Shown: piece by piece, positions 13,998-38,655 of the stretch
Layout of the letters: each line of letters begins with the position of its first letter
How positions within the stretch are numbered: position 1 is the stretch's first letter
Virus record (IMG/VR): IMGVR_UViG_3300042197_002230
Location: 1-38,655 of that record
Length of the DNA: 38,655 nucleotides
DNA from: a virus
Reading direction: 5' to 3' (one strand)
Position numbers and translations under genes: made by a program
Notes under the pieces: generated by a model
Databases searched by the model: none
What the model saw: the letters and a program-made list of their open reading frames with translations, nothing else
Told to the model about the DNA's origin: nothing

Positions 13998-16064
13998 ATG
14001 AAAAAACCAGATCTGAAAAAGTTTAAAAATTCTCCACCAGAAAATCCATACAATCCATTAAATCCTCTCTATAAAAGAATGACTAAATTTTTTAGTGGAC
14101 CAATCAACACATATAAGGTTCCACAAGCTGTTCTTAACAAAAGACGAGATTTAAATAAGTATGAGTTTACTTCTGCTGAAGGTTTGCCCTTTAAAAAGAA
14201 AGATTCTTCAAGCCCTATTGATTATTTATATTCAAGAGTTCTTGGTAACATTGGACGATTAGAACGATATCAAGATTTCGATGCTATGGATTTTACTCCA
14301 GAAATAAACAGTGCATTAGATATCTATGCGTCTGAGATAACAACATATACAGAATTCTCTCCCATGCTTAAAATTACATCAAATAATGATGAGATTAAGC
14401 AGATTATCAGATCTCTATTTGACGATGTTCTTAATATTCATGATAATTTATTTTCATGGGTAAGAGCAATGTGTAAATATGGAGATTTTTTCTTATATCT
14501 CGATATGGACGAGAAGTCTGGCGTAAAATCATTCGTAGGATTTAGACCATCTGAAGTAGAGCGTCTTGAGGGTATTGATGAGTCAAACCCAAACTACATA
14601 AGATTTCAGTGGAATAGTGGCGGTTTAAGTTTTGAAAACTGGCAAATGATACATTTTAGAGTTCTAGGCGATGACAGATTTTTTCCTTATGGATGCTCTG
14701 TTTTAGCTGGTGCAAGAAGAATTTTTAAGCAGTTAGATTTGCTTGAAAATGCAGTTATTTCTTATAGAATAGTAAGATCGTCTGAGAAAAGAGTTTTCTA
14801 TATTGACGTAGCCTCAATTCCACCTGAAGATGTTGAACAGTATATTAATAGGATTGTTTCTAATATCAAAGAAAACACTGTAGTAGATGCGGAAACAGGA
14901 CGGGCAGACAAGAGATATAACCCACAGCATTCTGTTGAGAAAGATTATTTCTTGGCTGTTAGAGGAAGCACAACTGGAACAAAGATAGAATCCCTTCCTG
15001 GTGGGGCATATACAGGTGATGTTGACGACATTAAGTATTTCCGAGATAAACTATTTTCAGCATTAAAGATTCCAGGAGCGTATCTTGCTCAGACTGATTC
15101 TGTTGAAGATAAGATGTCTCTAGCTCAAAAAGATCTCATGTTCGGAAGAACAATCATGAGAATTCAGAACTCTGTTGTAGCAGAGTTAAGAAAAGTAGCA
15201 ATGATTCATCTGTATTTTCTTGGATTTAGAGGAAAAGATTTACTTGATTTTGATATCAAATTAAATAATCCATCAAAAATTGCAGAACTTCAAGAACTAG
15301 AGCACTTTAAAACAAGAGCAGAATTGGCAAGTTCACTAACAGAAGGTTTCTTTAGTAAAGAATATATTTACAAGAAAATTTTCGGACTATCTGATCTTGA
15401 GATTCTCGAACAGAGAACTGGAATATTCCATGATGCTAAGACTCAAATTCTCTTACAGCAACTTTCCGAAGTAAATACCAGCGAAGGTGGAGGTGGTCCA
15501 GCAGGTGGATTATCTTCTCCTAGTGAAGACTTTGGTTCTGCTGGAATTGTAGAGCCAGAAGATATTTCTGCACCAGGTGGAGAAGGTATACTAAAGGCAT
15601 CTCCATCAGAAGAAGAAGTAGGAGAGATTAAGTCTGGGATAGAATCAGAAGGTGGAGGTGGAGGTGAAGCTCCCCCACCAGAAACAAAAACTGGCGAAGA
15701 AGCAAAGAGGAATGAAACTTATTTCACTGACCGATCAAAAGGCAAAGCTTATACAAAAGTAAACCATGATCATAGAACAAGCAGTGGGCCAAGAAAGAAA
15801 CAGAATAAATCTGCATATTCAGACTCTTTAGCATCTAATTCTTTTAAGAACATATTTAATGGCGCATTGGGGATGAAATCATTTGGTAGAGGTATCATTC
15901 CAGATTCTATGGATGTACAATCATCAAATGATATTAAAAAAATACTTGATAATTTTGATATGATTAAACAAAATAAGGAACTAATTATCGAGAAAGATAA
16001 TTATTTTGCAAAATTCCTTACAGAAAGAGCGCCAGGTATAAAGGACGAAGATACAGATGAATAA
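13998..16064 (+). CDS. Portal protein (gp20-like) with Gly-rich extension
   Basis: The product forms the dodecameric portal through which DNA enters and leaves. Residues about 70-480 carry the T4-type portal core: PEINSALDIYASEITTY (101-117), YGDFFLYLD (161-169), the RVFYIDV strand (265-271) and the long helices around 345-410. At 688 residues it is much longer than T4 gp20 (about 524). The excess lies mainly in a Gly/Pro/Glu-rich linker at about 496-565 and a C-terminal region of unknown fold. The stop overlaps the next gene by 8 bases. Confidence 0.9.
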   Translation: MKKPDLKKFKNSPPENPYNPLNPLYKRMTKFFSGPINTYKVPQAVLNKRRDLNKYEFTSAEGLPFKKKDSSSPIDYLYSRVLGNIGRLERYQDFDAMDFTPEINSALDIYASEITTYTEFSPMLKITSNNDEIKQIIRSLFDDVLNIHDNLFSWVRAMCKYGDFFLYLDMDEKSGVKSFVGFRPSEVERLEGIDESNPNYIRFQWNSGGLSFENWQMIHFRVLGDDRFFPYGCSVLAGARRIFKQLDLLENAVISYRIVRSSEKRVFYIDVASIPPEDVEQYINRIVSNIKENTVVDAETGRADKRYNPQHSVEKDYFLAVRGSTTGTKIESLPGGAYTGDVDDIKYFRDKLFSALKIPGAYLAQTDSVEDKMSLAQKDLMFGRTIMRIQNSVVAELRKVAMIHLYFLGFRGKDLLDFDIKLNNPSKIAELQELEHFKTRAELASSLTEGFFSKEYIYKKIFGLSDLEILEQRTGIFHDAKTQILLQQLSEVNTSEGGGGPAGGLSSPSEDFGSAGIVEPEDISAPGGEGILKASPSEEEVGEIKSGIESEGGGGGEAPPPETKTGEEAKRNETYFTDRSKGKAYTKVNHDHRTSSGPRKKQNKSAYSDSLASNSFKNIFNGALGMKSFGRGIIPDSMDVQSSNDIKKILDNFDMIKQNKELIIEKDNYFAKFLTERAPGIKDEDTDE

Positions 16065-17371: not shown

Positions 17372-17626
17372 ATGAAAGTAAAAATTAGAGAATCTGTTCT
17401 AAGACAGATAGTAGAACAAGAAACAAAAATAATGTTAGAAGAAAAAAATAATAGAATGGCTAATATTGTTTTTGCAATAGGTGAAGCTTATGCTTCATGT
17501 AGAGATTCTGCAACAAAGAAGAAATTAGAAGAAGTATTTTCCCTATTTGAACAAGAATTATTTATAGATAATACTCCATATAAATTAAAAGATTTGTTTA
17601 TAAATAATGCTGGAGATAAAAAATAA
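17372..17626 (+). CDS. Small helical protein in prohead-core position
   Basis: The 84-residue product is helical, with two probable helices at about 5-25 and 28-58. Its opening, MKVKIRESVLRQIVEQE, resembles the pattern of basic/hydrophobic N-termini in the later accessory island, though more weakly. Size and position, just before the protease, match T4 gp67, the small prohead core protein, but sequence identity is not evident. AAAGGAAC precedes the ATG, and the stop overlaps the protease start (TAATG). Confidence 0.5.
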   Translation: MKVKIRESVLRQIVEQETKIMLEEKNNRMANIVFAIGEAYASCRDSATKKKLEEVFSLFEQELFIDNTPYKLKDLFINNAGDKK

Positions 17627-18198
17627 TGTTTCTCATAAAAGAATTTCAAAAGCTTGATGGAGCTGCTGTCTCAAGAGAAGAAGATCCTGTAACTAAAAAA
17701 ACAAATATGTATTTAACAGGAATCATGCAGAGAGCAAATGCTAAAAATGGAAATGGTAGAATTTACGAAAAGAAAATTCTTCTTAGAGAAGTTGAGAATT
17801 ATCAAATAATAATTTCTGAAAAAAGAGCATTAGGAGCACTAGATCATCCAAATGATTTAGAAGTTAAACTAGCAGACGCTTCTCATATAGTTGAAAGATT
17901 ATGGTGGGACAATAATGATGTAGTGGGAAGAATTAGGCTTTTAAATACTACAAAAGGCAAAGAAGCACAAGCTCTAATAGAAGATGGTGTGACATTAGGC
18001 ATATCTTCAAGAGGTCTCGGATCTCTTACTACAGAAGGCGAAATTACAAAAGTAAATGATGATTTTAGACTGATATGCTTTGATTTAGTGCAGGAACCAA
18101 GCACTTCAGGAGCCTTTATGATTAAAGAAGGAAAGGCGTCTATTTCTATTCCAAAATCAGAAAAGCTATATAGGCTTATTAATGATATAATAATTTAA
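17626..18198 (+). CDS. Prohead core protease (gp21-like serine protease)
   Basis: This enzyme degrades the scaffold and trims capsid proteins during head maturation. In 190 residues it shows the family pattern: NGNGRIY (41-47), LDHP with catalytic His74, GVTLGISSRG with Ser127 or Ser128, and the following CFDLVQEPST with Asp153. It lies downstream of the portal, as gene 21 does in T4. Head-assembly genes on both sides overlap or nearly touch it. In related proteases, substrates are cut after Glu in hydrophobic-x-Glu contexts, relevant to the tag hypothesis for the accessory island. Confidence 0.88.
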   Translation: MFLIKEFQKLDGAAVSREEDPVTKKTNMYLTGIMQRANAKNGNGRIYEKKILLREVENYQIIISEKRALGALDHPNDLEVKLADASHIVERLWWDNNDVVGRIRLLNTTKGKEAQALIEDGVTLGISSRGLGSLTTEGEITKVNDDFRLICFDLVQEPSTSGAFMIKEGKASISIPKSEKLYRLINDIII

Positions 18199-18207
18199 AG
18201 AGGTAAC

Positions 18208-18645
18208 ATGAAAGCTTCAGAATTAAAAAGTATAGTAAAAGAATGTGTTAGAGAAATACTCCAAGAGGATGATCTGATCTCTAACATAATAATTCAATCA
18301 TTCAAAGCGTCAGAAACAATAAGAGAATCTAGTATTAGATCCAATAATAAAATAGATATTATTCAAACAGAATCACAAAAAAAAAATGTTCCAGAAAAAC
18401 CAAAAAATACAAACATGAAAGATGTGTGGAAAAAAGTTCTAGAAGTAAAGAAACCTAGTAGAGAACAGCTTGACGAACACGGATACGGATTAGATACAAT
18501 AGACGTAAAGCAATCTAATCATACACATCAAAAACAAGAACTTACTTTCATGGATCTTTTAAAAGAAGATAAACATGAAGAAAAAGTAGAAATTCAAGAA
18601 GATAAAGAGTTCATGAATTTTTTTGCTAAAAAATTTAAAAAATAA
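18208..18645 (+). CDS. Scaffold-position protein, charged and disordered
   Basis: The 145-residue product has a helical N-terminus (LKSIVKECVREILQE), a low-complexity middle rich in Lys, Gln and Asn, and an acidic then basic tail. It follows the prohead protease by 9 bases behind AAGAGG, the place of the scaffold gene 22 in T4, but it is much shorter than gp22. A scaffold or protease-processed core role is inferred from position and composition only. Confidence 0.5.
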   Translation: MKASELKSIVKECVREILQEDDLISNIIIQSFKASETIRESSIRSNNKIDIIQTESQKKNVPEKPKNTNMKDVWKKVLEVKKPSREQLDEHGYGLDTIDVKQSNHTHQKQELTFMDLLKEDKHEEKVEIQEDKEFMNFFAKKFKK

Positions 18646-18656
18646 AAGGTGATTAG

Positions 18657-18887
18657 ATGTCAAAATGTGTACACGTAGAGGTTGTTAAAAAACCTAATGA
18701 AGATGAATCAAAATTAATAAAAAGATTTTTGAAAAAAACTCAAAAATCTAAAATATTAGTAAAAGTTATGGAGAAGGTCTTTTACAGAAAACCAAGTGAA
18801 GTAAAGAGGTTGGATAAAAAAAGATCTATAAACAAAAGAAAGAAAGCTCAACAAAAACAAATTGCTTTAGACGTAGATAATAAATAA
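18657..18887 (+). CDS. Phage-encoded ribosomal protein bS21 homologue
   Basis: The 76-residue basic product aligns without gaps to bacterial bS21 across its core: IKRFLKKTQKSKILVKVMEK corresponds to the [20 protein letters not shown] helix, and VFYRKPSEVKR to EFYEKPTTERKR, followed by a Lys/Arg-rich helix. bS21 binds the small subunit near the 16S 3' end and helps initiation. Phage copies are known and are thought to replace or supplement host bS21 late in infection. A strong AAAGGTG site precedes the ATG. It lies between head-assembly and adhesion genes, so late expression is likely. Confidence 0.85.
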   Translation: MSKCVHVEVVKKPNEDESKLIKRFLKKTQKSKILVKVMEKVFYRKPSEVKRLDKKRSINKRKKAQQKQIALDVDNK

Positions 18888-19353: not shown

Positions 19354-19719
19354 ATGCAACCAATACTAAATAAAACAGAAAACACTGAAGAATATACTGT
19401 TGTTACTGTATTAGGAGAGATAACTTATCATCGTGAGGATGGACCAGCCTATATCTATTTTTGGCCTAACGGAAATAAAAAATTAGAAATTTGGTATTTG
19501 AATGGGCTTCGTACAAAACTAGATGGACCTGCTGTTATTGAATATTATGACAATGGAAATAAAAAAGAAGAACAGTGGTATGTTAGCGAAGAACAACATA
19601 GAATAGATGGTCCTGCATGGATTATATATAATGAAACCGGAGCAGTTGTTACCGAATATTATTTTCAAAATAATCTTCTTTTTAGAGAAAATGATTTACC
19701 AACAATAGTTAATTATTAA
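19354..19719 (+). CDS. MORN/YwqK-type repeat protein without the island tag
   Basis: The 121-residue product consists of about four HREDGPA-type repeats of roughly 22-25 residues. HREDGPAYIYF, LDGPAVIEYYDNGNKK, HRIDGPAWIIY and a decayed FREND-LPTIVNY are each followed by an aromatic-rich strand such as EIWYLNG. This pattern matches MORN_2/YwqK-family repeats, thought to form beta-hairpins for protein or ligand contact. The same repeats dominate the accessory island 14 kb downstream, but this copy lacks the MRLNIKxKY N-terminus. AAAGGCAATAAT precedes the ATG. Confidence 0.75.
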   Translation: MQPILNKTENTEEYTVVTVLGEITYHREDGPAYIYFWPNGNKKLEIWYLNGLRTKLDGPAVIEYYDNGNKKEEQWYVSEEQHRIDGPAWIIYNETGAVVTEYYFQNNLLFRENDLPTIVNY

Positions 19720-29569: not shown

Positions 29570-30169
29570 TCAATCTTCATCTTCTTCTGGGTCATATTCA
29601 TCTTCATCATCAAGAAGAAGATAGAAAATATCTAGAACCTCTGGTTTTATTTCAGTCTCTTTAAGACCTGTTATTCCAAGATAAGTTGAATCAAAAGGCT
29701 CCCCAGCGTTACCTAATCTTATTATTCCTTCACGATCTCCTTCCCATTCTGGATGTTCGCTCCAATTTAATAAATTATTTTCTATCCTTTGAGCGTCCTC
29801 TTCGGAGACAAGAAAACTGTCCAATAAACCTTGATCAGCAGCTTCTTCAAGTGCTTCTCCTTTTCTTATGGCAAATACTCCTGCTACTGGACCATATTCA
29901 TTAGTTATTATATACAATCGTTGTATCGAATTAGATCTTTCGTAATCCATTTTAAAATAGAAATCTGCTGCTAGATCGCATATTTTTAATTTATAGAAAC
30001 CATTTTTATCAATCTCTATTGGTTTATATATTTTTTCACCAAATGTTTCAAAGGCTTTCTGTAATTTTTCTGAAAAATAGCAATTACTCCATTTTTCATC
30101 TTTTCTTACAGAATTTAAAAGTCTTGTTGCATATATTTTACTATATTTGTTTTTAATATTTATTTTCAT
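29570..30169 (-). CDS. Island-tagged protein, unknown body, acidic tail
   Basis: The 199-residue product starts with the island tag MKINIKNKYSKIYA. The body is mixed alpha/beta with no repeat and no recognised domain. It ends in a strongly acidic tail (LLLDDEDEYDPEEDED). It is the last gene of the minus-strand operon, its start overlaps the upstream stop (ATGA), and its stop abuts the convergent plus-strand gene. AGAGGAAAGCAAGA precedes the ATG. Function unknown. Confidence 0.6.
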   Translation of the reverse strand: MKINIKNKYSKIYATRLLNSVRKDEKWSNCYFSEKLQKAFETFGEKIYKPIEIDKNGFYKLKICDLAADFYFKMDYERSNSIQRLYIITNEYGPVAGVFAIRKGEALEEAADQGLLDSFLVSEEDAQRIENNLLNWSEHPEWEGDREGIIRLGNAGEPFDSTYLGITGLKETEIKPEVLDIFYLLLDDEDEYDPEEDED

Positions 30170-31212
30170 TCTTGCTTTCCTCTGTTTACTCTAAATGGAG
30201 AATTTTTAGAGAACAAAACTTCTAACGCTTGATCTTCTGGGATAATATTTCTGAATACTTTAATGTTTGAATCCCATATCTTTCTTATTATTTCTGGTGG
30301 TATGTTACTAGAAACTTGGAAATAATTCTTAATAGCATCTATATATCTCCATGTGTTGACTTCGCCCATGTATTTTTCTATAAAAAAATCTATTATTTTT
30401 AATTTAGAATTTGTACTTAATTTTTCACAGTTTAATAATGATTTTGCTATATAAAAATTTTTTTTATAAAATTTTTCAAAAATTTCTTCTACTAATTCTG
30501 GCGTAGCTCCATTGCACCAAATAAACCCTATTAAAATTTGTTCCACGTCACTACTTTCCCATATCCTACTTCCGTGGAATCCAGATGTTGAGTTTTTAAA
30601 TTCATCAAAAGCTTCTTTTGCTTTTAGAAAAGCATTGTTATCCAAACATTTGAGCAAATGTTCTGGTCTGTAAGTTGAAAGCATATCGTTAACGTTTGGA
30701 AGAAAATTTATAAATATTTTAAGCAGCATAGAAGAATCAATGTTTTCTTTTTTGCACAAAGATGAATATATAGAATTCTTTGTTTCTTTATAATACTCAA
30801 AATCCCAATAGGATTGCTCCGATTGCTCGATGAGAAAAGAATTTGTTATATGACTATCGATCTCTTCAAATATTTTTCTTGTAATTTCAGGAGGACAATT
30901 TTCATTTTGTACTAGTTCCTTATAATAGATAAATGCATAATCTGACGCTGGTACTCCCCCTCCTCCTATTTCGCCAATAACGTTTTGATCAAAAAGATTA
31001 GTCAAATATTTTTCACCATAAGTTGCTTCTGTATATACAAGTTCTAGTATGGCAGGATCTTGTGCTGCTCCAATCCAACCTTGTTTTTGATTAAAATAAA
31101 TAGTTTTATTAAACTTTTCAATAAATTTAGAAACTTCTGGAGTTAATGATATTTTGCTGTGATGACTTTCTGAATATATGTTACTATATTTTTTTCTAAT
31201 ATTTATTCTCAT
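30166..31212 (-). CDS. Island-tagged helical-repeat protein
   Basis: The 348-residue product has the tag MRINIRKKYSNIYS followed by an all-helical body. Several segments share a helix start of the form x-x-C/T/I-P-P/x-E-[IL]-x-x-[KE]-I: NCPPEITRKIFEE, GATPELVEEIFEK, NIPPEIIRKIWDS. This resembles leucine-rich-repeat-variant (LRV) or HEAT-like repeats and the clearer ones in the gene at 32454-32870. It may be a scaffold for protein binding. It ends in a basic RVNRGKQE tail, and AAGGATTATAGTAA precedes the ATG. Confidence 0.58.
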   Translation of the reverse strand: MRINIRKKYSNIYSESHHSKISLTPEVSKFIEKFNKTIYFNQKQGWIGAAQDPAILELVYTEATYGEKYLTNLFDQNVIGEIGGGGVPASDYAFIYYKELVQNENCPPEITRKIFEEIDSHITNSFLIEQSEQSYWDFEYYKETKNSIYSSLCKKENIDSSMLLKIFINFLPNVNDMLSTYRPEHLLKCLDNNAFLKAKEAFDEFKNSTSGFHGSRIWESSDVEQILIGFIWCNGATPELVEEIFEKFYKKNFYIAKSLLNCEKLSTNSKLKIIDFFIEKYMGEVNTWRYIDAIKNYFQVSSNIPPEIIRKIWDSNIKVFRNIIPEDQALEVLFSKNSPFRVNRGKQE

Positions 31213-31227
31213 TTACTATAATCCTTA

Positions 31228-32136
31228 TTATAATTCTCCAAAAGTATTTTCATAATCTTCAATACTCATATATTCAGTCCTGCTGAAAACACCATTCTCA
31301 GGTTCCATGTCTGGATTTTCTGCTTCAAATTCTGAAAATTGTGCATACCCATGGGCTTGCGAAACCGCAAATGTACAACTTACTTTATCATAAGCAGGAC
31401 TGCCGTAGTCAACTTGTACTCTATATGGATGAGTTTTGAAAAACTCTTCGGAATAAAATTTATCTTTTGAAGCCCATTCTTTATAAACAACTCTCTGCTC
31501 TTCATCGTATTTAACAAAACAAAAACCTTCGTGCGTTGCATCTGTAATTTGTCTACCATTCAACCAATATTGTTTTGATTCTATATTTCCATCTGGATAT
31601 GTTCGTATACTAGCAGGACCATTTTCACGATGTAATTCACCATCCTTGTGCCATGATGCAGATTTAGTATCATTTTCTTGGCTCTTGCTAAAAGTAGATG
31701 GCTGATCATTGAAGCTGTGATATTCATCATTCCTTTTAGTTGTGAAATAATCAAAAAGACCATTTATTGTTTGTCTATTAAATTGCGCATAAAATTCAAT
31801 TTCATTCAAACCAGTTTCATTTTTACGGAAATGTATAAGTTTTTCATCCTCATTCCATTTACATTTTATAATGACCTTATCTTCTTGAACAACAGAATAT
31901 TCATACGAATTGGGGTTTTTAAAATTTATTAACGTTTCTTCGATATTGTCGTGTTTAAAATAATAAAATACCAATACACTATTTTCATTTACCTTAAACT
32001 GTTCAAGTCTTGATAATACAGAATTTAAATTTGTATATTGTGGAAATATCTTATCAAAAGATATTCCCTTATTAAGATTTTTATATTCATTTCTACCATA
32101 TATTTGTGAAAATTTTTTTCTAATGTTTATCTTCAT
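31228..32136 (-). CDS. Island-tagged protein with MORN/YwqK-type repeat
   Basis: The 302-residue product starts with MKINIRKKFSQIYG. An upstream in-frame start would add eight residues, but the ATG at 32136 matches the tag of the other island genes and overlaps the previous stop (ATGA), so it is preferred. The first 150 residues are unrecognised alpha/beta. Residues about 165-205 carry one clear HRENGPASIRTYPDGN unit with flanking aromatic strands (YWLNGRQ). The C-terminal part is acidic. Confidence 0.62.
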   Translation of the reverse strand: MKINIRKKFSQIYGRNEYKNLNKGISFDKIFPQYTNLNSVLSRLEQFKVNENSVLVFYYFKHDNIEETLINFKNPNSYEYSVVQEDKVIIKCKWNEDEKLIHFRKNETGLNEIEFYAQFNRQTINGLFDYFTTKRNDEYHSFNDQPSTFSKSQENDTKSASWHKDGELHRENGPASIRTYPDGNIESKQYWLNGRQITDATHEGFCFVKYDEEQRVVYKEWASKDKFYSEEFFKTHPYRVQVDYGSPAYDKVSCTFAVSQAHGYAQFSEFEAENPDMEPENGVFSRTEYMSIEDYENTFGEL

Positions 32137-32441
32137 CTCTGCACCATCTCCTCTTCCCATCTGTCTATTTCACAACGAACAAGCTTGTCATCATTCCAAT
32201 AAGAACCATCTTCATCTTCATAATCAGGATATCCTGAATATCCAACTACATATTTAATCCATGTATGACCATCTCTGAACGATGCGTTTCCTAAAATATG
32301 ATGAACATTATTTGTTTCCCACACAACAGGTATATCTAGAAATTCATCAATTGTTAAATTGAGATGGGATAAACCTTTTGAAACTTTTAGTTTCAGCCTA
32401 CTTTCTATCCTGAAAAACTTTTGTCTGATGTCTATTTTCAT
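32133..32441 (-). CDS. Island-tagged small protein
   Basis: The 102-residue product begins MKIDIRQKFFRIES, a divergent version of the tag. The body contains GYSGYPDYEDEDGSYWNDD and ends RWEEEMVQR; no family is recognised. An AAGGAAAATAGGTA site precedes the ATG, and its stop overlaps the next start by 4 bases, so it is co-translated with the 302-residue protein. Confidence 0.55.
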   Translation of the reverse strand: MKIDIRQKFFRIESRLKLKVSKGLSHLNLTIDEFLDIPVVWETNNVHHILGNASFRDGHTWIKYVVGYSGYPDYEDEDGSYWNDDKLVRCEIDRWEEEMVQR

Positions 32442-32453
32442 TACCTATTTTCC

Positions 32454-32870
32454 TTATTTTATTGGACCTAAAAAGTTTCTCATAGAGGTTGGTAGAGATT
32501 GTAGCCCGCCACTGACTTTAGAATAAGTTTCAGTTGCAGTCTTTGCAACAGCAGGGAATGAATCGCTCATTAGCTTCTTAAGCACGTCTTTTGGAGTTTT
32601 CTGATTTTTTGAAACAGATAATCTAACATACTCATTAGGATCATTAGATAGATTTACTAATATATGAATTGGTGTATTTTTATTGCTGGCAACAAGTCTT
32701 CTTATCCATGTATCTTCATGTGTTGATAGATAAGCAAGTTTTTTAGGAGAATCTGTATTTCCTGCAAAATCTTTTAAATCATCAAATGGTTTATCTTTAA
32801 GTTCTATAGCATCTTCCATATGCACTCTATTTTTAATAGAATTATACATTTTTTTAATGTCTAATCTCAT
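32454..32870 (-). CDS. Island-tagged LRV-like repeat protein
   Basis: The 138-residue product has a tag variant MRLDIKKMYNSIKN, a short acidic linker, then three helical repeats of about 24 residues: PKKLAYLSTHEDTWIRRLVASNKNT, PIHILVNLSNDPNEYVRLSVSKNQKT, PKDVLKKLMSDSFPAVAKTATE. The pattern P-x-x-L-x-x-L-s-x-D-x-x-x-x-V-R-x-x-V-A-x-N-x-x-T is that of leucine-rich-repeat-variant proteins. These pack as a helical solenoid, usually for protein contacts. The tag on a fold unlike the MORN repeats is important evidence that the tag is a separate functional unit. AAGGGGGGATGAT precedes the ATG. Confidence 0.68.
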   Translation of the reverse strand: MRLDIKKMYNSIKNRVHMEDAIELKDKPFDDLKDFAGNTDSPKKLAYLSTHEDTWIRRLVASNKNTPIHILVNLSNDPNEYVRLSVSKNQKTPKDVLKKLMSDSFPAVAKTATETYSKVSGGLQSLPTSMRNFLGPIK

Positions 32871-32871
32871 A

Positions 32872-33165
32872 TCATCCCCCCTTGATTGAAGCTATCTTTT
32901 TCTGGAGCAATGCAATCCTATTGCTTTCTGAATATGGTATTACGAACTCACATTTAACTTCAATGATTTTACTTGGTGGCCCATTTTTATCTTTAATTGG
33001 TATTTCAATCAGGAAATTTCCACACCCTATTGTTTCTTTAATTATACCACTGTGCCATTTAAATGGTCCATCTATTATAAAAACTCTATCATGATAATTT
33101 AAGGGGCAGGAAACAATTTCACCATTTAATATATATGTAGTTGATAAATCTGTAATATCTATCAA
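32872..33165 (-). CDS. Untagged small beta protein in island operon
   Basis: The 97-residue product is the only island gene without the tag. The start is TTG, chosen because a perfect AAGGAGG lies seven bases upstream and it overlaps the previous stop (TTGA). The body has a beta-barrel-like segment (DRVFIIDGPFKWHSGIIKET, then FLIEIPI) that recalls SH3/KOW-like folds, and a helical end. No family is certain. Confidence 0.52.
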   Translation of the reverse strand: MIDITDLSTTYILNGEIVSCPLNYHDRVFIIDGPFKWHSGIIKETIGCGNFLIEIPIKDKNGPPSKIIEVKCEFVIPYSESNRIALLQKKIASIKGG

Positions 33166-33692
33166 TCTTCATCCTCCTTCTGTCCGTTCCACCACCATTC
33201 GCTGCGAATTACATCACCCCTTGAATTGAACTCAACAAGAGCAGGTTCATCAAGATTATGTAATCTCCCCTCGGCATCATACCATGAAATTTCTTCAAAA
33301 TTTCCATTAGGAAAATAAGCTATATAAGCTGGACCATCTGCTCTGTATCTTTTATTGTTTTCATAATACGCTTCAATCTGTACTCCACCATCCTCATAGA
33401 ATTTAATAAGTTGTGGACCTCCAATCCTATGCTTGTTGTTATGATTAAAATACCTTAACGCCTTTAAAGATCCATCCCTATAATATTCAATAACAGCTGG
33501 CAAATCTCCATCTCTATGAACTTTACCATTCTCTTTCCAGATTTCTGTAGATATTTTATATCCTTCTCCAAGAAAAGTTTCATCGTAATATTCTACTTCT
33601 GTGGGAGGTTTGCCGTCACCACTAGTACGATATTTTCCTACTGAATTAGGATTATATATCTTACGATATTTTTGTCTTATATTTAATCTCAT
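33162..33692 (-). CDS. Island-tagged MORN/YwqK repeat protein
   Basis: The 176-residue product starts with MRLNIRQKYRKIYN and has about four repeats: HRDGDLPAVIEYYRDGS, HRIGGPQLIKFYEDGG, YRADGPAYIAYFPNGN and HNLDEPALVEFNSRGD, each followed by an aromatic strand (RYFNHNNK, AYYENNK, SWYDAEG, EWWWNGQ). It ends in the acidic KEDED. It is the first gene of the minus-strand operon. AAGGG lies in the loop of a small hairpin whose stem includes part of the start codon. Confidence 0.7.
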   Translation of the reverse strand: MRLNIRQKYRKIYNPNSVGKYRTSGDGKPPTEVEYYDETFLGEGYKISTEIWKENGKVHRDGDLPAVIEYYRDGSLKALRYFNHNNKHRIGGPQLIKFYEDGGVQIEAYYENNKRYRADGPAYIAYFPNGNFEEISWYDAEGRLHNLDEPALVEFNSRGDVIRSEWWWNGQKEDED

Positions 33693-33717
33693 GTTATTGC
33701 CCTTATTGTAATAACAT
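33691..33717 (-). promoter_or_regulatory. Hairpin enclosing ribosome binding site of minus operon
   Basis: Perfect 8-base arms (ATGTTATT and AATAACAT) flank an 11-base loop. In the minus-strand transcript the loop carries AAGGG, the ribosome binding site, and the 3' arm reaches into the ATG at 33692. Folding could reduce initiation. The stem is A/T-rich and weak, so the effect is speculative. Confidence 0.35.
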
Positions 33718-33721
33718 AATA

Positions 33722-33730
33722 ATTATAACA
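33722..33730 (-). promoter_or_regulatory. Candidate extended -10 promoter for minus-strand operon
   Basis: On the minus strand this reads TGTTATAAT, a perfect extended -10 element (TGnTATAAT), 30-40 bases before the first minus-strand start codon. No good -35 hexamer is visible, as is often the case with extended -10 promoters. It sits in the only divergent gap of the window (33693-33800), which must drive both arms of the island. Confidence 0.5.
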
Positions 33731-33758
33731 AATGTGGCATAAACACAAAAGGAAACTA

Positions 33759-33764
33759 TATAAA
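33759..33764 (+). promoter_or_regulatory. Weak -10-like site for plus-strand arm
   Basis: TATAAA lies about 37 bases before the ATG at 33801 in the divergent gap. No convincing -35 element is present at 17 bases upstream. It is offered as a possible promoter because the plus-strand arm must start in this gap. Confidence 0.25.
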
Positions 33765-33800
33765 CTATAGCCAGATGCTAATTAGTTGAAAGGGTTCATT

Positions 33801-34382
33801 ATGAGAATAAATATAAAACGCAAATATGATAAAATTTATTCAAAACACCATTCTTTACTAAACAAAGAATTAAATGTTGATGAATGGATATTGGTTGATG
33901 ATGAAATAGCAAAAAATATAAAAATATATAAACATAAAGATATCCCTAAATATTTTAAAAGAATAAATAAATATACCGAAAGGTTCGGCTTCGGAACACC
34001 TGAAACTGTGCAAGCGCATGAACGTGTTCGTATAGAATATTATTTTGAAAAAAATTATGAGTTTAGATATCATAGGGAAGAGGGTCCAGCAATTTTATCA
34101 TTTAAAAATGGAACTTTAAAAAGTGAAGACTATTATAAAAATGGCAATAAAGGTCGAGCAGGAGCACCTGCGGATATTGTTTATTACGATGATGGAAATA
34201 TTGCTTCTGAAGTATGGTATAAAAATGATGAAAAACATAGAACAGATGGTCCTGCTTATATAGATTATGCTCCCGATGGAGAAATAGAATTAGAAAAATT
34301 TTATCTAAACGGTGAAAGATTTTATTCACAAGAAGATTTTAACGAAGCCTTACAGAACCAACAAGAGGAATTAGAGTGGTGA
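33801..34382 (+). CDS. Island-tagged MORN/YwqK repeat protein
   Basis: The product has 193 residues from the ATG at 33801, chosen because it gives the family tag MRINIKRKYDKIYS and has AAAGGG seven bases upstream; an in-frame TTG at 33786 would add five residues. Residues 15-85 are unrecognised. Repeats follow: HREEGPAILSFKNGT, RAGAPADIVYYDDGN and HRTDGPAYIDYAPDGE with aromatic strands between. It is the first gene of the plus-strand arm, and its stop overlaps the next start (GTGA). Confidence 0.7.
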   Translation: MRINIKRKYDKIYSKHHSLLNKELNVDEWILVDDEIAKNIKIYKHKDIPKYFKRINKYTERFGFGTPETVQAHERVRIEYYFEKNYEFRYHREEGPAILSFKNGTLKSEDYYKNGNKGRAGAPADIVYYDDGNIASEVWYKNDEKHRTDGPAYIDYAPDGEIELEKFYLNGERFYSQEDFNEALQNQQEELEW

Positions 34383-34825
34383 GAGTAAATATTAAAAATA
34401 AATACGGTAAAATATATAGGATAGGCAGAACAAAACCTGGATCAGCATATAGATATAAAAAATATGGAGAGCCACATTTTTTCAAACCTAATGAATGGGG
34501 TGATCCTGAAGTGGAAAAATGGTTCCATCCAAACCACTGGACAAAGATCATAGTTAATTATAACACAGGACTTGTTTTTTCATTTCATTATGAATATGAT
34601 GCGCCAGCAACTGTGGAGATAAAAGATATTAACAACAAAGTTGCAAAAGACGAGTCAGGCAACCGCATACATGCTGATTATGATGAGTATAGGAATGTAA
34701 TATCCACATATAAATTTTATAGGGATGAATATGGTAATCCAGATCCAACAAATTTGATATATTTAGAAACTTATGATTTAAATGGAAATCATGTTGCAAA
34801 CGATGCAGTAAATCCACCATTGTAA
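34379..34825 (+). CDS. Island-tagged protein with diverged repeats
   Basis: The product has 148 residues from GTG at 34379, which restores the tag MRVNIKNKYGKIYR and overlaps the previous TGA; the preceding in-frame GTG at 34376 would add one residue. AGAGGA lies upstream. The body is beta-rich with poorly conserved elements (YDAPATVEIKDINN, YLETYDLNGNHV) that could be decayed MORN-type units. No domain is recognised with certainty. Confidence 0.58.
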   Translation: MRVNIKNKYGKIYRIGRTKPGSAYRYKKYGEPHFFKPNEWGDPEVEKWFHPNHWTKIIVNYNTGLVFSFHYEYDAPATVEIKDINNKVAKDESGNRIHADYDEYRNVISTYKFYRDEYGNPDPTNLIYLETYDLNGNHVANDAVNPPL

Positions 34826-34850
34826 ATAATATTATAGAGGGCATAGAAAA

Positions 34851-35714
34851 ATGAGATTAAATATAAAAAATAAATATAGTAAAATATATAGACACATAGA
34901 AGGACCAATCTCCTCATATGCTTGGAAACTTTCTAGTAAAATATATCCGACTGATGGGGTATCTGAATATGATCTGGTAACTGAATATGTATACGTAAGC
35001 AAAAAAGACCCTTCTGTACAAAGAGAGATAAGGACTTTGCGCACAGTTCACCCCGATGATGAAGATGGTGGATATGACGATGAAGATGGGGGTACCCCAC
35101 AAGAATCTGTAATAGTATCAGATAAATATTATCGTGATGGTAATTTACATAGGGAGGATGGTCCTGCTGTAATAGAATATTATGACAATGGATCCCTTAA
35201 GGAAGAAGGGTATTGGGTTGATGGTCGCCCCCATCGCATTGATGGTCCACAACTAACAATATGTTTTCCTAATGGTGGTGGCCCATCTTCTGTTCGGTAT
35301 GTAGTCGATTCTAAGAAACATCGAGAGGATGGTCCTGCTATAATTGATTATTTTCGTTCAGGTGATATATTAAGAGAAACATATTATATAAATAATAAGC
35401 TGCATAGGGAGGATGGCCCTGCTTATATTAAATACAATTCAAATGGATATAAAACAGAAGAGGAGTGGTGTTTAAACGATAAACGTCATCGTGAAGATGG
35501 TCCTGCTCTTATTTGGTATTACGAAAACGGAAATAAGAAATATGAAGAATGGTGGATAGATAATGAATTACATAGAGAAGACGGACCTGCTACTATTGAA
35601 TATTATGAAAATGGAAACAAACAATATGAATCATGGTATAAAAATAAAGAAGATGGTCCCGTTGTTATTTGGTATAACCCTGACGGTTCTATCATAGATG
35701 ATTCTATAGCCTGA
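34851..35714 (+). CDS. Island-tagged protein with seven MORN/YwqK repeats
   Basis: The 287-residue product starts with MRLNIKNKYSKIYR, then about 80 residues of unrecognised sequence with an acidic patch, then seven repeats of about 22 residues: six start with HREDGPA or HRIDGPQ and the seventh is a shortened KEDGPVVIWYNPDG. Between them are strands such as EEWWIDNEL and ESWYKN. It is the longest repeat array in the island. MORN_2/YwqK repeats form beta-hairpins, and YwqK proteins act as antitoxins in some bacteria, but no toxin is evident here. GAGGGCATAG precedes the ATG. Confidence 0.75.
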   Translation: MRLNIKNKYSKIYRHIEGPISSYAWKLSSKIYPTDGVSEYDLVTEYVYVSKKDPSVQREIRTLRTVHPDDEDGGYDDEDGGTPQESVIVSDKYYRDGNLHREDGPAVIEYYDNGSLKEEGYWVDGRPHRIDGPQLTICFPNGGGPSSVRYVVDSKKHREDGPAIIDYFRSGDILRETYYINNKLHREDGPAYIKYNSNGYKTEEEWCLNDKRHREDGPALIWYYENGNKKYEEWWIDNELHREDGPATIEYYENGNKQYESWYKNKEDGPVVIWYNPDGSIIDDSIA

Positions 35715-35741
35715 AAACAATCATAGTCTATCTCCAGGACT

Positions 35742-35862
35742 GTAATAAGAATTAAAAAGGAAACAAACAATATGAGGTTAAACATAAGGTCTAAATATAG
35801 AAAAATATATGGAGGTTTACATTTACCAAAAGATCTTTGGGAAATTACAGATAAAGAAGAAA
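35742..35862 (+). repeat. Recent direct repeat, copy 1 (leader plus 5' coding)
   Basis: This segment, from 30 bases before the ATG to codon 30, is repeated at 38520-38642 with about nine mismatches in the coding part and an uninterrupted identical run of about 50 bases. It marks a recent duplication of the leader, tag and first part of a body. Confidence 0.85.
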
Positions 35863-36152
35863 GGGTATTCGGTCGGGTTTCCGTGGACCATCAAGGCCGT
35901 GTCTTACCTGGTGGCAATAAAATTGAAACTTATACCTATACGAATAAACAAGACAGAAATTTAACCATAAAAGTTGAGTCGGCTGATTTTGCGGGTGCCA
36001 TTGGATTAGACATGATTGAGAGGAGAGTATACTTCTATGATGGAAAGAAACATCGTGAAGATGGACCAGCACTAATAGAATATAGTAAATTAGGCAAACC
36101 ATTGTATAAAGAGTGGTGGCGGGATGGTAAACAGATAGACATGGACGACTGA
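35772..36152 (+). CDS. Island-tagged protein with one MORN/YwqK repeat
   Basis: The 126-residue product has the tag MRLNIRSKYRKIYG, then GGLHLPKDLWEITDKEE, shared with the gene truncated at the window end, a central beta region, one repeat HREDGPALIEYSKLGK with EWWRDGK, and an acidic end (DMDD). AAAAAGGAAACAAACAAT precedes the ATG, the first of six leaders with AAACARYATG. Confidence 0.68.
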   Translation: MRLNIRSKYRKIYGGLHLPKDLWEITDKEERVFGRVSVDHQGRVLPGGNKIETYTYTNKQDRNLTIKVESADFAGAIGLDMIERRVYFYDGKKHREDGPALIEYSKLGKPLYKEWWRDGKQIDMDD

Positions 36153-36176
36153 CCCGAATAAGGAGTTTTAAACAGT

Positions 36177-36731
36177 ATGAGATTAAATATAAAAGATAAG
36201 TATCGTAGAATATATATTGGAAACTACAAGAATAGCTTGTTAGTTGAATTCAAAAATAGTAAATGGAAAATAAGACACACCTACCCAGATGCAGGTGGTT
36301 ATAAAACTGTAACTTATGAGATAAAACACCATTGGGAAAGAAAGAATTCAATAACCCTTCAAAAAGACGCATACGAAGATTCTAATGGACAAGCAATGCG
36401 CATAGACTATTATTTTAGAGAAGGTGAAAGTGGTCACGGACCTCGACTGGTAAGAGTTGTATTCTTCCCATCTGGCAAGATTCGTCAAGTAAGATATTAT
36501 AGTATTGATTCTCAAACTCATGGTTACTCTCAAACCCCTCATGCACACAATCAAGTTGAATATCCTGATGATGATAGTAATAATATTTCTATTTCCCAAA
36601 TAGAAAAAGATATCAAACAAGATATAATAGATTATGTTCTATCAAAGCCAGACGAAAATGAAAATAAATTTATTGGTTTGGATGATGACCCTCTTCCTGA
36701 AGGTTGGGAAGAGCAATATGATATATATTAG
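36177..36731 (+). CDS. Island-tagged protein with decayed repeat
   Basis: The 184-residue product has the tag MRLNIKDKYRRIYI. The body contains only a degenerate unit (HGPRLVRVVFFPSGKIRQVRYY) that keeps the Gly-Pro, the PSG turn and the following aromatic strand but has lost HRED. The C-terminus is acidic and ends DDDPLPEGWEEQYDIY. The leader AAGGAGTTTTAAACAGT fits the common island pattern. It may represent divergence of a repeat protein to a new partner. Confidence 0.6.
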   Translation: MRLNIKDKYRRIYIGNYKNSLLVEFKNSKWKIRHTYPDAGGYKTVTYEIKHHWERKNSITLQKDAYEDSNGQAMRIDYYFREGESGHGPRLVRVVFFPSGKIRQVRYYSIDSQTHGYSQTPHAHNQVEYPDDDSNNISISQIEKDIKQDIIDYVLSKPDENENKFIGLDDDPLPEGWEEQYDIY

Positions 36732-36754
36732 AATATTAAGGAGTCATAAACAGC

Positions 36755-37234
36755 ATGAAATTAGATATTAAAAGAAAGTACAAGAAAATGTATCGTCAAT
36801 TAATAGCAGATATTCCATTAACAAAAGATCAGTATGGTGATTGGGAATTGATTCATGATGATGAAGATGAAGGTTTTCGTATAGAGTTTTATGAGAAACT
36901 CATGCCATTTGAAGAAGATGAACCACATGTTGCTCTAGAAAAGAAAGTCTATTATCATGCTGATACATGGTATAATACTAAGCATTTAGGATTACAAACT
37001 GAAACACCAAATACGATAAGATATTACAAAAAAAAATGGGACCCTCACGACAAATTAGTGATTCCTATTAAGATAGTACATTTTTATCCATCTGGATTTA
37101 TCGAACGGGAATGGAATGATGAAAGTGCAAATACTCGCGCATACGATCTATACGTCGATGACTATGATTATATCCCTAATTCCCCTACATCAACCTCACA
37201 GCATTACAAAGATGGTGAAAAAGTTCTTCAATAA
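36755..37234 (+). CDS. Island-tagged protein with decayed repeat
   Basis: The 159-residue product begins MKLDIKRKYKKMYR. After QLIADIPLTKDQYGDWELIHDDEDEG, a WEL segment also found in the next gene, the body is acidic and Tyr-rich. A degenerate unit (PIKIVHFYPSGFIEREW) remains near residue 115. AAGGAGTCATAAACAGC precedes the ATG. Function unknown. Confidence 0.6.
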   Translation: MKLDIKRKYKKMYRQLIADIPLTKDQYGDWELIHDDEDEGFRIEFYEKLMPFEEDEPHVALEKKVYYHADTWYNTKHLGLQTETPNTIRYYKKKWDPHDKLVIPIKIVHFYPSGFIEREWNDESANTRAYDLYVDDYDYIPNSPTSTSQHYKDGEKVLQ

Positions 37235-37249
37235 GGAAATTTAAACAAC

Positions 37250-37750
37250 ATGAAGCTAAACATAAAGAATAAATACAATAAGATTTATCAAAAACTATCA
37301 GTTGCCGGAACACCATCATTAAAAAATTGGGAGCTTGTCAACAGCGACGAATCACTTCTTGGACGGATAGAAAATTACTATGTCAGTAAAATAGATAAAA
37401 ATTACAAAATGATTATTGATCTTGGCATAGAAGAGGAAGGCGGGGAGCCAAGGGTACTTTCTATAACTTTCAAACATAAAAATAAAATGCACAGAGAAAA
37501 TGGTCCTGCTCGAATTTGGTATAACCCTGATGGTAGCGTAGAAATAGAGAAGTGGTATCGTAGAGGAGAACCTCATAGGAAAGGTGGCCCTGCTATAGTA
37601 TATTATTATCCCAGTGGAGAAATAGATTATACTTTTACTGAATGGTGGCAGGATGGAATAAGGTTAAATGAAGATGGAACACCATATACTGACGATGAAG
37701 ATGAATATTGGATGGATGAAGATGAATATTGGATGGATGATGATGAATAA
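37250..37750 (+). CDS. Island-tagged MORN/YwqK repeat protein, acidic repeat tail
   Basis: The 166-residue product starts with MKLNIKNKYNKIYQ. SLKNWELVNSDESLLGRIENYY follows, then two repeats (HRENGPARIWYNPDG, HRKGGPAIVYYYPSG) and EWWQDGIRLNEDG. The tail is a short tandem repeat, DEDEYWM twice then DDDE, coded by a duplicated 21-base unit near 37697-37738. The leader AAGGAAATTTAAACAAC matches the island pattern. Confidence 0.68.
   Translation: MKLNIKNKYNKIYQKLSVAGTPSLKNWELVNSDESLLGRIENYYVSKIDKNYKMIIDLGIEEEGGEPRVLSITFKHKNKMHRENGPARIWYNPDGSVEIEKWYRRGEPHRKGGPAIVYYYPSGEIDYTFTEWWQDGIRLNEDGTPYTDDEDEYWMDEDEYWMDDDE
37697..37738 (+). repeat. Tandem 21-base repeat in acidic tail
   Basis: Two adjacent copies of GATGAAGATGAATATTGGATG encode DEDEYWM twice, followed by a third partial GATGATGATGAA. 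The unit keeps the frame, so copy number can change without breaking the protein. Confidence 0.7.
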
Positions 37751-37765
37751 AGGGGAGTAAACAAC

Positions 37766-38533
37766 ATGAGATTAAATATAAAGGGTAAATATAATAATAT
37801 ATATGGAAAACATGTAAGAAGAAAAATATCTGCAATGAAAGCTTCCTTAGTAGATAAAAACATCTGGAAGTTTGTAGAGGAAAGAAATGGTTTTGATTAT
37901 TACATATCTAAAAAAGATAACAATGCAGCCATGATAATTGGAGAAATTTCTCCATGGGTTGAAGGGTCTTGGGTTGCTGATGTAATGGCTCATGCGTATT
38001 CAGTTGATATGAATCGAGTCGAGATAACTCAAGTATACTCTTATGATGGAGATAAACATCGAGAGGATGGCCCAGCTAAGATATGTTATAAACTTGATGG
38101 AACCGTAATAAGAGAAGAGTGGTGGAAGAATTTCCAACTACATAGGGAAGGGGGACCTGCTGTTATTTATTATTACGAAAACGGAAACAAAATTAGTGAA
38201 GTATGGTACATCAATGATGAAAGACATAGAATAGATGGTCCTGCTGAAGTTAAATATTACGAAAACGGAAACAAAGAACATGAAGCATGGTATAAAGATA
38301 AAGATGGTAACTTACATAGGGAAGACGGTCCTGCTATTATTGAATATTATGATAACGGGAATAAAAAAAAGGAAATATGGTTCATCGATGACGAAAGACA
38401 TAGGGAAGGGGGACCTGCTCAAATTTGGTATAACCCTGATGGCTCTATCGCTGGTAGAGAATGGTGGAAGGGGGGAAAGAAGATGGGTGGCACTCTCATC
38501 GAATCGACGACATTAAAGCGTAATAAGAATTAG
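37766..38533 (+). CDS. Island-tagged protein with five MORN/YwqK repeats
   Basis: The 255-residue product has the tag MRLNIKGKYNNIYG, an unrecognised region to about residue 95, and five repeats: HREDGPAKICYKLDG, HREGGPAVIYYYENGN, HRIDGPAEVKYYENGN, HREDGPAIIEYYDNGN and HREGGPAQIWYNPDGS, separated by strands such as EWWKNFQ, EVWYIND and EIWFIDD. The last repeats are close at DNA level to those of the 34851 gene, suggesting exchange. AAAGGGGAGTAAACAAC precedes the ATG. Confidence 0.74.
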   Translation: MRLNIKGKYNNIYGKHVRRKISAMKASLVDKNIWKFVEERNGFDYYISKKDNNAAMIIGEISPWVEGSWVADVMAHAYSVDMNRVEITQVYSYDGDKHREDGPAKICYKLDGTVIREEWWKNFQLHREGGPAVIYYYENGNKISEVWYINDERHRIDGPAEVKYYENGNKEHEAWYKDKDGNLHREDGPAIIEYYDNGNKKKEIWFIDDERHREGGPAQIWYNPDGSIAGREWWKGGKKMGGTLIESTTLKRNKN

Positions 38534-38642
38534 AAAGGGAACACAAACAATATGAGATTAAATATAAAGAGTAAATATAGAAAAATATATGGAGGTTTAC
38601 ATTTACCAAAAGATCTTTGGGAACTTACAAATAAGGAAGAAG
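38520..38642 (+). repeat. Recent direct repeat, copy 2
   Basis: Second copy of the 35742-35862 segment, starting 32 bases before the ATG at 38552. The upstream edge lies just before the TAATAAGAATTA common to both copies. Confidence 0.85.
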
Positions 38643-38655
38643 GTGAAGGTGAAGG
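38552..38655 (+). CDS. Island-tagged protein, 3' truncated by window edge
   Basis: The visible 34 codons read MRLNIKSKYRKIYG, then GLHLPKDLWELTNKEEGEGE. They are almost identical to the start of the gene at 35772 but turn into a Gly-Glu run at the edge. The leader AAAGGGAACACAAACAAT matches. The gene continues past the window, so the island is larger than seen here. Confidence 0.7.
   Translation, partial: MRLNIKSKYRKIYGGLHLPKDLWELTNKEEGEGE

Follow-up and report, generated by a model that had tools for sequence, protein, structure and literature searches.

The first 13 residues of a set of phage proteins form a constant N-terminal tag that is quite probably a docking or loading signal for one common partner. 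The tag was found in a stretch of viral DNA, hereafter the window, which is the complete IMG/VR record IMGVR_UViG_3300042197_002230 (38,655 bases) and is probably itself a fragment of a phage genome. At the right end of the window lies an island of 16 genes (29570-38655), 7 on the minus strand and 9 on the plus strand. As the initial annotation had reported, 15 of these 16 genes share an N-terminal tag, with the consensus M-[RK]-[LIV]-[ND]-I-[KR]-x-[KM]-[YF]-x-x-[IM]-[YEK] at a plausible start codon; the last of them, g15, is cut by the contig end, and the gene at 32872-33165 is untagged. The docking reading is favoured because the tag is sharply bounded, under purifying selection and carried by unrelated folds, because a low-confidence linker is predicted behind it, and because the same arrangement recurs with other tags elsewhere. 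On these grounds the original proposal of a sorting or docking tag, kept while the bodies change, is well supported.

A degenerate 39-nucleotide (nt) pattern for the tag matched the window 11 times, with no match in 100 shuffles. Column information was 8-12 standard deviations over chance at positions 2-6, 8, 9, 12 and 13. Conservation fell to background within a few residues past position 13, and 13 residues is therefore the correct length. A tag profile was trained solely on the members with YwqK repeat bodies and scored against 4277 control N-termini. The remaining members scored 10.7-31.7 bits, and five of these seven exceeded every control; g05 was reached by 2 control N-termini and g04 by 4, so these two are regarded as weak members. 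The best match to the profile in the window outside the island was the protein at 17372, which was considered as an ancestor of the tag and rejected: 0.4% of control N-termini equal it, and it was not significant over the open reading frames (ORFs) of the window.

At the conserved tag codons the proportion of synonymous differences (pS) was 0.68 and that of nonsynonymous differences (pN) 0.13, a pN/pS of 0.19; over codons 14-25, which are hardly alignable, pN/pS was 1.22. The low ratio in the tag, with synonymous sites near saturation, indicates that selection keeps the protein sequence, and the near-saturation also means that the tag shows no sign of recent copying. The tag is strongly basic (charge +2 to +6), as first described. 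The amphipathic character attributed to it is weak, the helical hydrophobic moment lying above shuffle (P<0.05) in 4 of 15 tags only.

The genes of the island are given below with strand, tag, length in amino acids (aa) and body.

29570-30169, minus strand: g01, tag MKINIKNKYSKIY, 199 aa, acidic body of no known family
30166-31212, minus strand: g02, tag MRINIRKKYSNIY, 348 aa, predicted all-helical (low confidence)
31228-32136, minus strand: g03, tag MKINIRKKFSQIY with ATG at 32136, 302 aa, single clear YwqK repeat
32133-32441, minus strand: g04, weak tag MKIDIRQKFFRIE, 102 aa, unrelated body
32454-32870, minus strand: g05, weak tag MRLDIKKMYNSIK, 138 aa, LRV/HEAT repeat body
32872-33165, minus strand: the sole untagged gene of the island, TTG start, 97 aa
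33162-33692, minus strand: g06, tag MRLNIRQKYRKIY, 176 aa, YwqK body
33801-34382, plus strand: g07, tag MRINIKRKYDKIY, 193 aa, YwqK body
34379-34825, plus strand: g08, tag VRVNIKNKYGKIY with GTG start, 148 aa, unrelated body
34851-35714, plus strand: g09, tag MRLNIKNKYSKIY, 287 aa, YwqK body with 5 strong repeats
35772-36152, plus strand: g10, tag MRLNIRSKYRKIY, 126 aa, one YwqK repeat
36177-36731, plus strand: g11, tag MRLNIKDKYRRIY, 184 aa, marginal YwqK similarity
36755-37234, plus strand: g12, tag MKLDIKRKYKKMY, 159 aa, marginal YwqK similarity
37250-37750, plus strand: g13, tag MKLNIKNKYNKIY, 166 aa, YwqK body with very acidic C-terminus
37766-38533, plus strand: g14, tag MRLNIKGKYNNIY, 255 aa, YwqK body, MORN-like beta repeats predicted
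38552-38655, plus strand: g15, tag MRLNIKSKYRKIY, truncated at the contig end, a mosaic whose tag begins as in g14 and continues as in g10

The bodies behind the tag were compared using phmmer and a repeat hidden Markov model (HMM) derived from 1047 YwqK units found in other viruses. Seven of the 14 complete bodies (g03, g06, g07, g09, g10, g13 and g14) outscored all shuffles with the repeat HMM, and phmmer gave a weak link of g11 and g12 to the YwqK bodies; neither method linked g01, g02, g04, g05 or g08 to any other body. The cut gene g15 repeats the N-terminal region of g10, and its body is probably YwqK. The tally is 7 clear YwqK/MORN_2 bodies, 1 cut gene, 2 marginal and 5 unrelated; the fifteen unrelated bodies of the initial annotation were an overstatement. 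By the repeat HMM, the seven have the repeat HRxDGPAxI...G..xxExWY and the five do not. No member reaches the Pfam cut-off for YwqK, the best score being 28.6 bits vs 29.6. The LRV-like body noticed at the outset was confirmed in g05, which matches Pfam LRV above its cut-off (24.8 vs 21.6 bits). An AlphaFold2 model of g14 (11 sequences; predicted template modelling score, pTM, 0.71) has MORN-like beta repeats after residue 19, preceded by a helix at residues 5-13 predicted at low confidence and then by an unstructured, low-confidence stretch at 13-19. The predicted structure of g02 (mean predicted local distance difference test score, pLDDT, 46) is usable for the description 'helical' only.

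Outside the window, the tag pattern had no match in IMG/VR. When the pattern was relaxed, 6 IMG/VR loci matched, none of them YwqK; four (L019, L020, L023 and L024) hold one family of 514-559 aa whose N-terminus, MKINIKEKF.LIEKLE, fits the consensus and which had no Pfam or PHROG match. By a rough estimate, a few families of this kind could arise by chance. A scan of 84,980 prokaryote genomes returned 6 matches, one of them in frame inside a longer start region and none convincing, and a search with g02 found no relatives. The sequence of a close relative, G001 (portal 86%), stops before the island position, and no island was found in the slot between protease and capsid gene in G003 or in the fragments L113-L120. 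The 13-residue tag sequence is new.

The window also contains T4-like head genes, with matches to Portal_T4 (1.7e-72) and Peptidase_S77 (2.2e-30); the gp21-type protease had already been recognised in the initial annotation. The genes of this context are as follows.

13998-16064, plus strand: portal (gp20), T4-like
17372-17626, plus strand: small head-cluster protein MKVKIRESVLRQIVEQETKIMLEE, [LI]xE motifs present
17626-18198, plus strand: prohead protease, gp21-type (Peptidase_S77)
18208-18645, plus strand: head-cluster protein MKASELKSIVKECVREILQE, capsid-targeting-like N-terminus with [LI]xE
19354-19719, plus strand: YwqK-repeat protein outside the island, lacking the tag

The capsid gene is not within the window. 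In relatives it comes after the protease cluster and a few genes, some of them fibre-like; in the window, the slot downstream of the protease cluster is taken up by the YwqK gene, fibre-like proteins and a tail fibre assembly protein, with the island following. Two further observations concern this region. A short unlisted ORF at 18657-18887, encoding a basic protein of ~76 aa, sits where Microcystis phage Mel-JY01 has an annotated ribosomal protein S21. Between 20444 and 26081, proteins with GLFGGG-type repeats flank the tail fibre assembly protein and have a second common terminus, five starting with M[FI]RF[LF]L[CL]K and four ending with CSSTPGHL.

Across 76 surveyed IMG/VR loci that contain YwqK genes, many tandem YwqK families were seen to have virus-specific conserved ends, most of these families being ordinary paralogs. 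In three virus types the conserved end also occurs on non-YwqK bodies. One is a T4-like relative, G006 (contigs L034/L035/L080), whose portal and gp21 are 52% and 46% identical to those of the window. About a dozen of its ORFs carry the N-terminal tag MKLLFENWRKYLNE, in a set directly upstream of terminase, portal and protease, and the bearers include two YwqK proteins, a poly(A) polymerase, an NT5C nucleotidase and a nucleotidyltransferase. The YwqK proteins at L034 9158-10543 and L072 9227-10804 have a capsid-targeting-like N-terminus followed by a GTQWCTAA domain fused with YwqK repeats; a homologue of this middle domain occurs in PA5oct gp279, whose annotation as a virion structural protein comes from electrospray ionisation tandem mass spectrometry (ESI-MS/MS). 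The other two types have C-terminal tags. On L011 (6047-19151) the tag NINRNLKLLNKK is carried by YwqK proteins and by two other short proteins in which no YwqK repeat was detected; this contig is AT-rich and has a chaperonin-like gene. On L045 (2395-13665), a 180-kb virus contig, a 20-residue C-terminus is common to six YwqK proteins, and its profile also finds six further short proteins (the two tested being DUF285 leucine-rich) and a DUF4116 protein, each scoring higher than any of 2000 null windows. Both contigs are fragments in which no gp20 or gp21 was detected, and neither gave a match to a terminase or to a nucleocytoplasmic large DNA virus (NCLDV) capsid. Mel-JY01 was considered as a further case and rejected; it has one short common N-terminus (M[ND]T[KE]EIDFKFN), and the bearers look like ordinary paralogs. 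Separately, YwqK proteins at L038 1966-5005 have an N-terminus, NRRGLFKSGI, resembling a twin-arginine translocation (Tat) signal.

No description of virus-specific terminal tags recurring on mixed repeat proteins was found in the literature searched. We tentatively propose that several large DNA viruses might independently keep a 'constant tag, variable binder' arsenal, in which a virus-specific 12-20 residue N- or C-terminal tag on unrelated repeat proteins (YwqK, DUF285, DUF4116, LRV/HEAT) would deliver diversifying binders to one partner; the tag of the window would then be a new, uncleaved kind.

Three rival explanations are given less weight. In the first, tandem duplication has produced a family of YwqK paralogs, and the tag is merely their conserved N-terminal cap and does nothing by itself. 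Between 7 and 10 of the 15 bodies belong to such paralogs, conserved ends are seen on tandem YwqK families of many viruses, and g10 and g15 are recent duplicates over 108 nt (35754-35861 and 38534-38641, 89%), a segment that spans leader, tag and body start and whose differences within the first 24 codons all fall in tag codons 2-7. However, for five tagged bodies no relationship could be detected, either to YwqK or among themselves, purifying selection acts on the tag at near-saturated synonymous distance, the YwqK gene at 19354-19719 of the same phage lacks it, and a low-confidence linker is predicted between tag and body; already weakened by these observations, the explanation is unlikely. 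In the second, what is conserved is the DNA or RNA: a promoter, a translation-start element or a recombination seam whose sequence is coding by coincidence. In favour of this, g15 is a mosaic, with one difference from g14 in codons 1-7 and none from g10 in codons 8-24 (Fisher 8e-4). The last plus-strand genes have a common leader, and codon identity in the tag is slightly over expectation (0.644 vs 0.555, P=0.015). Against this stand the excess of synonymous over nonsynonymous differences at the conserved codons, a number of promoter-like matches equal to that in shuffled sequence (searches for T4 late and sigma-70 promoters gave nothing beyond chance) and the lack of an Rfam match; if recombination does occur inside the tag, this may simply follow from the tag being conserved, and it may also help to shuffle bodies. 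Very little weight can be given to a nucleic acid element on this evidence. A peripheral membrane-binding helix, for which the basic charge, the I, L and Y residues on part of the helix and the helix predicted at residues 5-13 would speak, is scarcely more credible, the hydrophobic moment being raised in so few of the tags.

The identity of the partner is less clear-cut, and the prohead core or shell, into which the tag would load proteins in the manner of T4 capsid-targeting sequences, comes close to an even chance. The internal proteins of T4 are a highly diverse set in which the capsid-targeting sequence is the sole common part (PMC3012670), and prohead proteases of the gp21 kind cut after Glu (PMC5694885). 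The packaging proposed in the initial annotation gains support because the tagged set of the T4-like relative has YwqK proteins beside head genes. The capsid-targeting-like N-terminus and the gp279-type middle domain of the L034 and L072 YwqK proteins also speak for it. Four observations weigh against it. In residues 6-26 the motif [LI]xE was present in 28 of 29 listed ORFs from four tag sets of related phages vs 3 of 15 island genes, no more than expected by chance (0.17); the usual capsid-targeting-like N-termini of the window phage lie elsewhere, at 17372 and 18208; no late-promoter signal was seen upstream of the tagged genes; and C-terminally tagged YwqK sets occur on contig fragments without detected gp20 or gp21. 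Because the test for a gp21-type cleavage motif was negative, the tag is neither shown to be nor classed as a T4-type capsid-targeting sequence; it may still work like one without cleavage. Body charge is no test of packaging, since the island set and the comparator set are both acidic. Alternatively, the tag could dock to a non-virion partner in the infected cell, such as a phage hub protein, the ribosome, RNA polymerase or a host complex, with the repeat bodies recruiting or blocking host or defence targets. The missing cleavage motif, the interaction-type repeats of the bodies and the recurrence of C-terminal tags on L011 and L045 all fit such a partner, but the matching tagged set of the nearest relative adjoins head genes, and the protease motif is present in its tags; we regard a cellular partner as nearly as likely as the prohead.

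Under the preferred docking reading, the first 13 residues would act as a constant docking or loading tag, a short basic segment with N or D at position 4 and a helix predicted from residue 5, joined by a probably flexible linker to the variable body. The tag would bring all its bearers to one common partner, most likely the prohead core or shell, and the bodies (MORN-like beta repeats, LRV/HEAT helical repeats and others) would vary and presumably bind different targets. Like the internal proteins of T4, the tagged proteins would then travel inside the virion and be injected as cargo directed against the host; unlike in T4, gp21 would not remove the tag.

Should the tag prove to be a loading signal, an entire set of uncharacterised proteins could be recognised as delivered cargo, and the sequence of the tag would be a handle for detecting such cargo in uncultured phages. 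Should it instead dock to a partner in the cell, a single pull-down with the 13-residue peptide would be enough to reveal what all fifteen proteins bind. Virus-specific terminal tags on YwqK sets also suggest a testable role for a widespread and unexplained repeat family of large viruses.

The arrangement of the tag is of the kind known from T4 internal proteins. Like IPI-III and Alt, the island set has an N-terminal tag of 10-20 residues on otherwise diverse proteins (here on 15 of 16 genes, bounded at residue 13, with several body types), together with a T4-like portal, an S77 protease and a head-gene context. It differs from them in having no Glu-ended [LI]xE at or near the tag and in its bodies, which are mostly repeat proteins. 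The MKLLFENWRKYLNE set of L034/L035/L080 is likewise an array of diverse-bodied genes, YwqK included, under a single N-terminal tag, but its tag sequence is another, 14 of its 15 listed ORFs have [LI]xE (two being copies of one protein), and it lies upstream of terminase, whereas the island of the window lies downstream of fibre genes. In Flavobacterium phage immuto, a related T4-like phage, the N-termini MENFDLKKFLVENKLT and MKKSQLRQIIKEEL each occur on several proteins, some beside head genes; unlike the window tag, they have [LI]xE in all members found (5/5 and 4/4), and no YwqK was found in the stretches read. YwqK/MORN_2 (PF07661) proteins, including the MORN-repeat families of giant viruses, share the body repeats and predicted fold of most of the tagged proteins, but the family is defined by the repeat and not by a tag, and five of the tagged bodies are not YwqK. 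By analogy, the window set may also be likened to the ankyrin-PRANC proteins of poxviruses, which combine a short constant docking end with a variable repeat binder, although in other viruses, with other folds and another partner.

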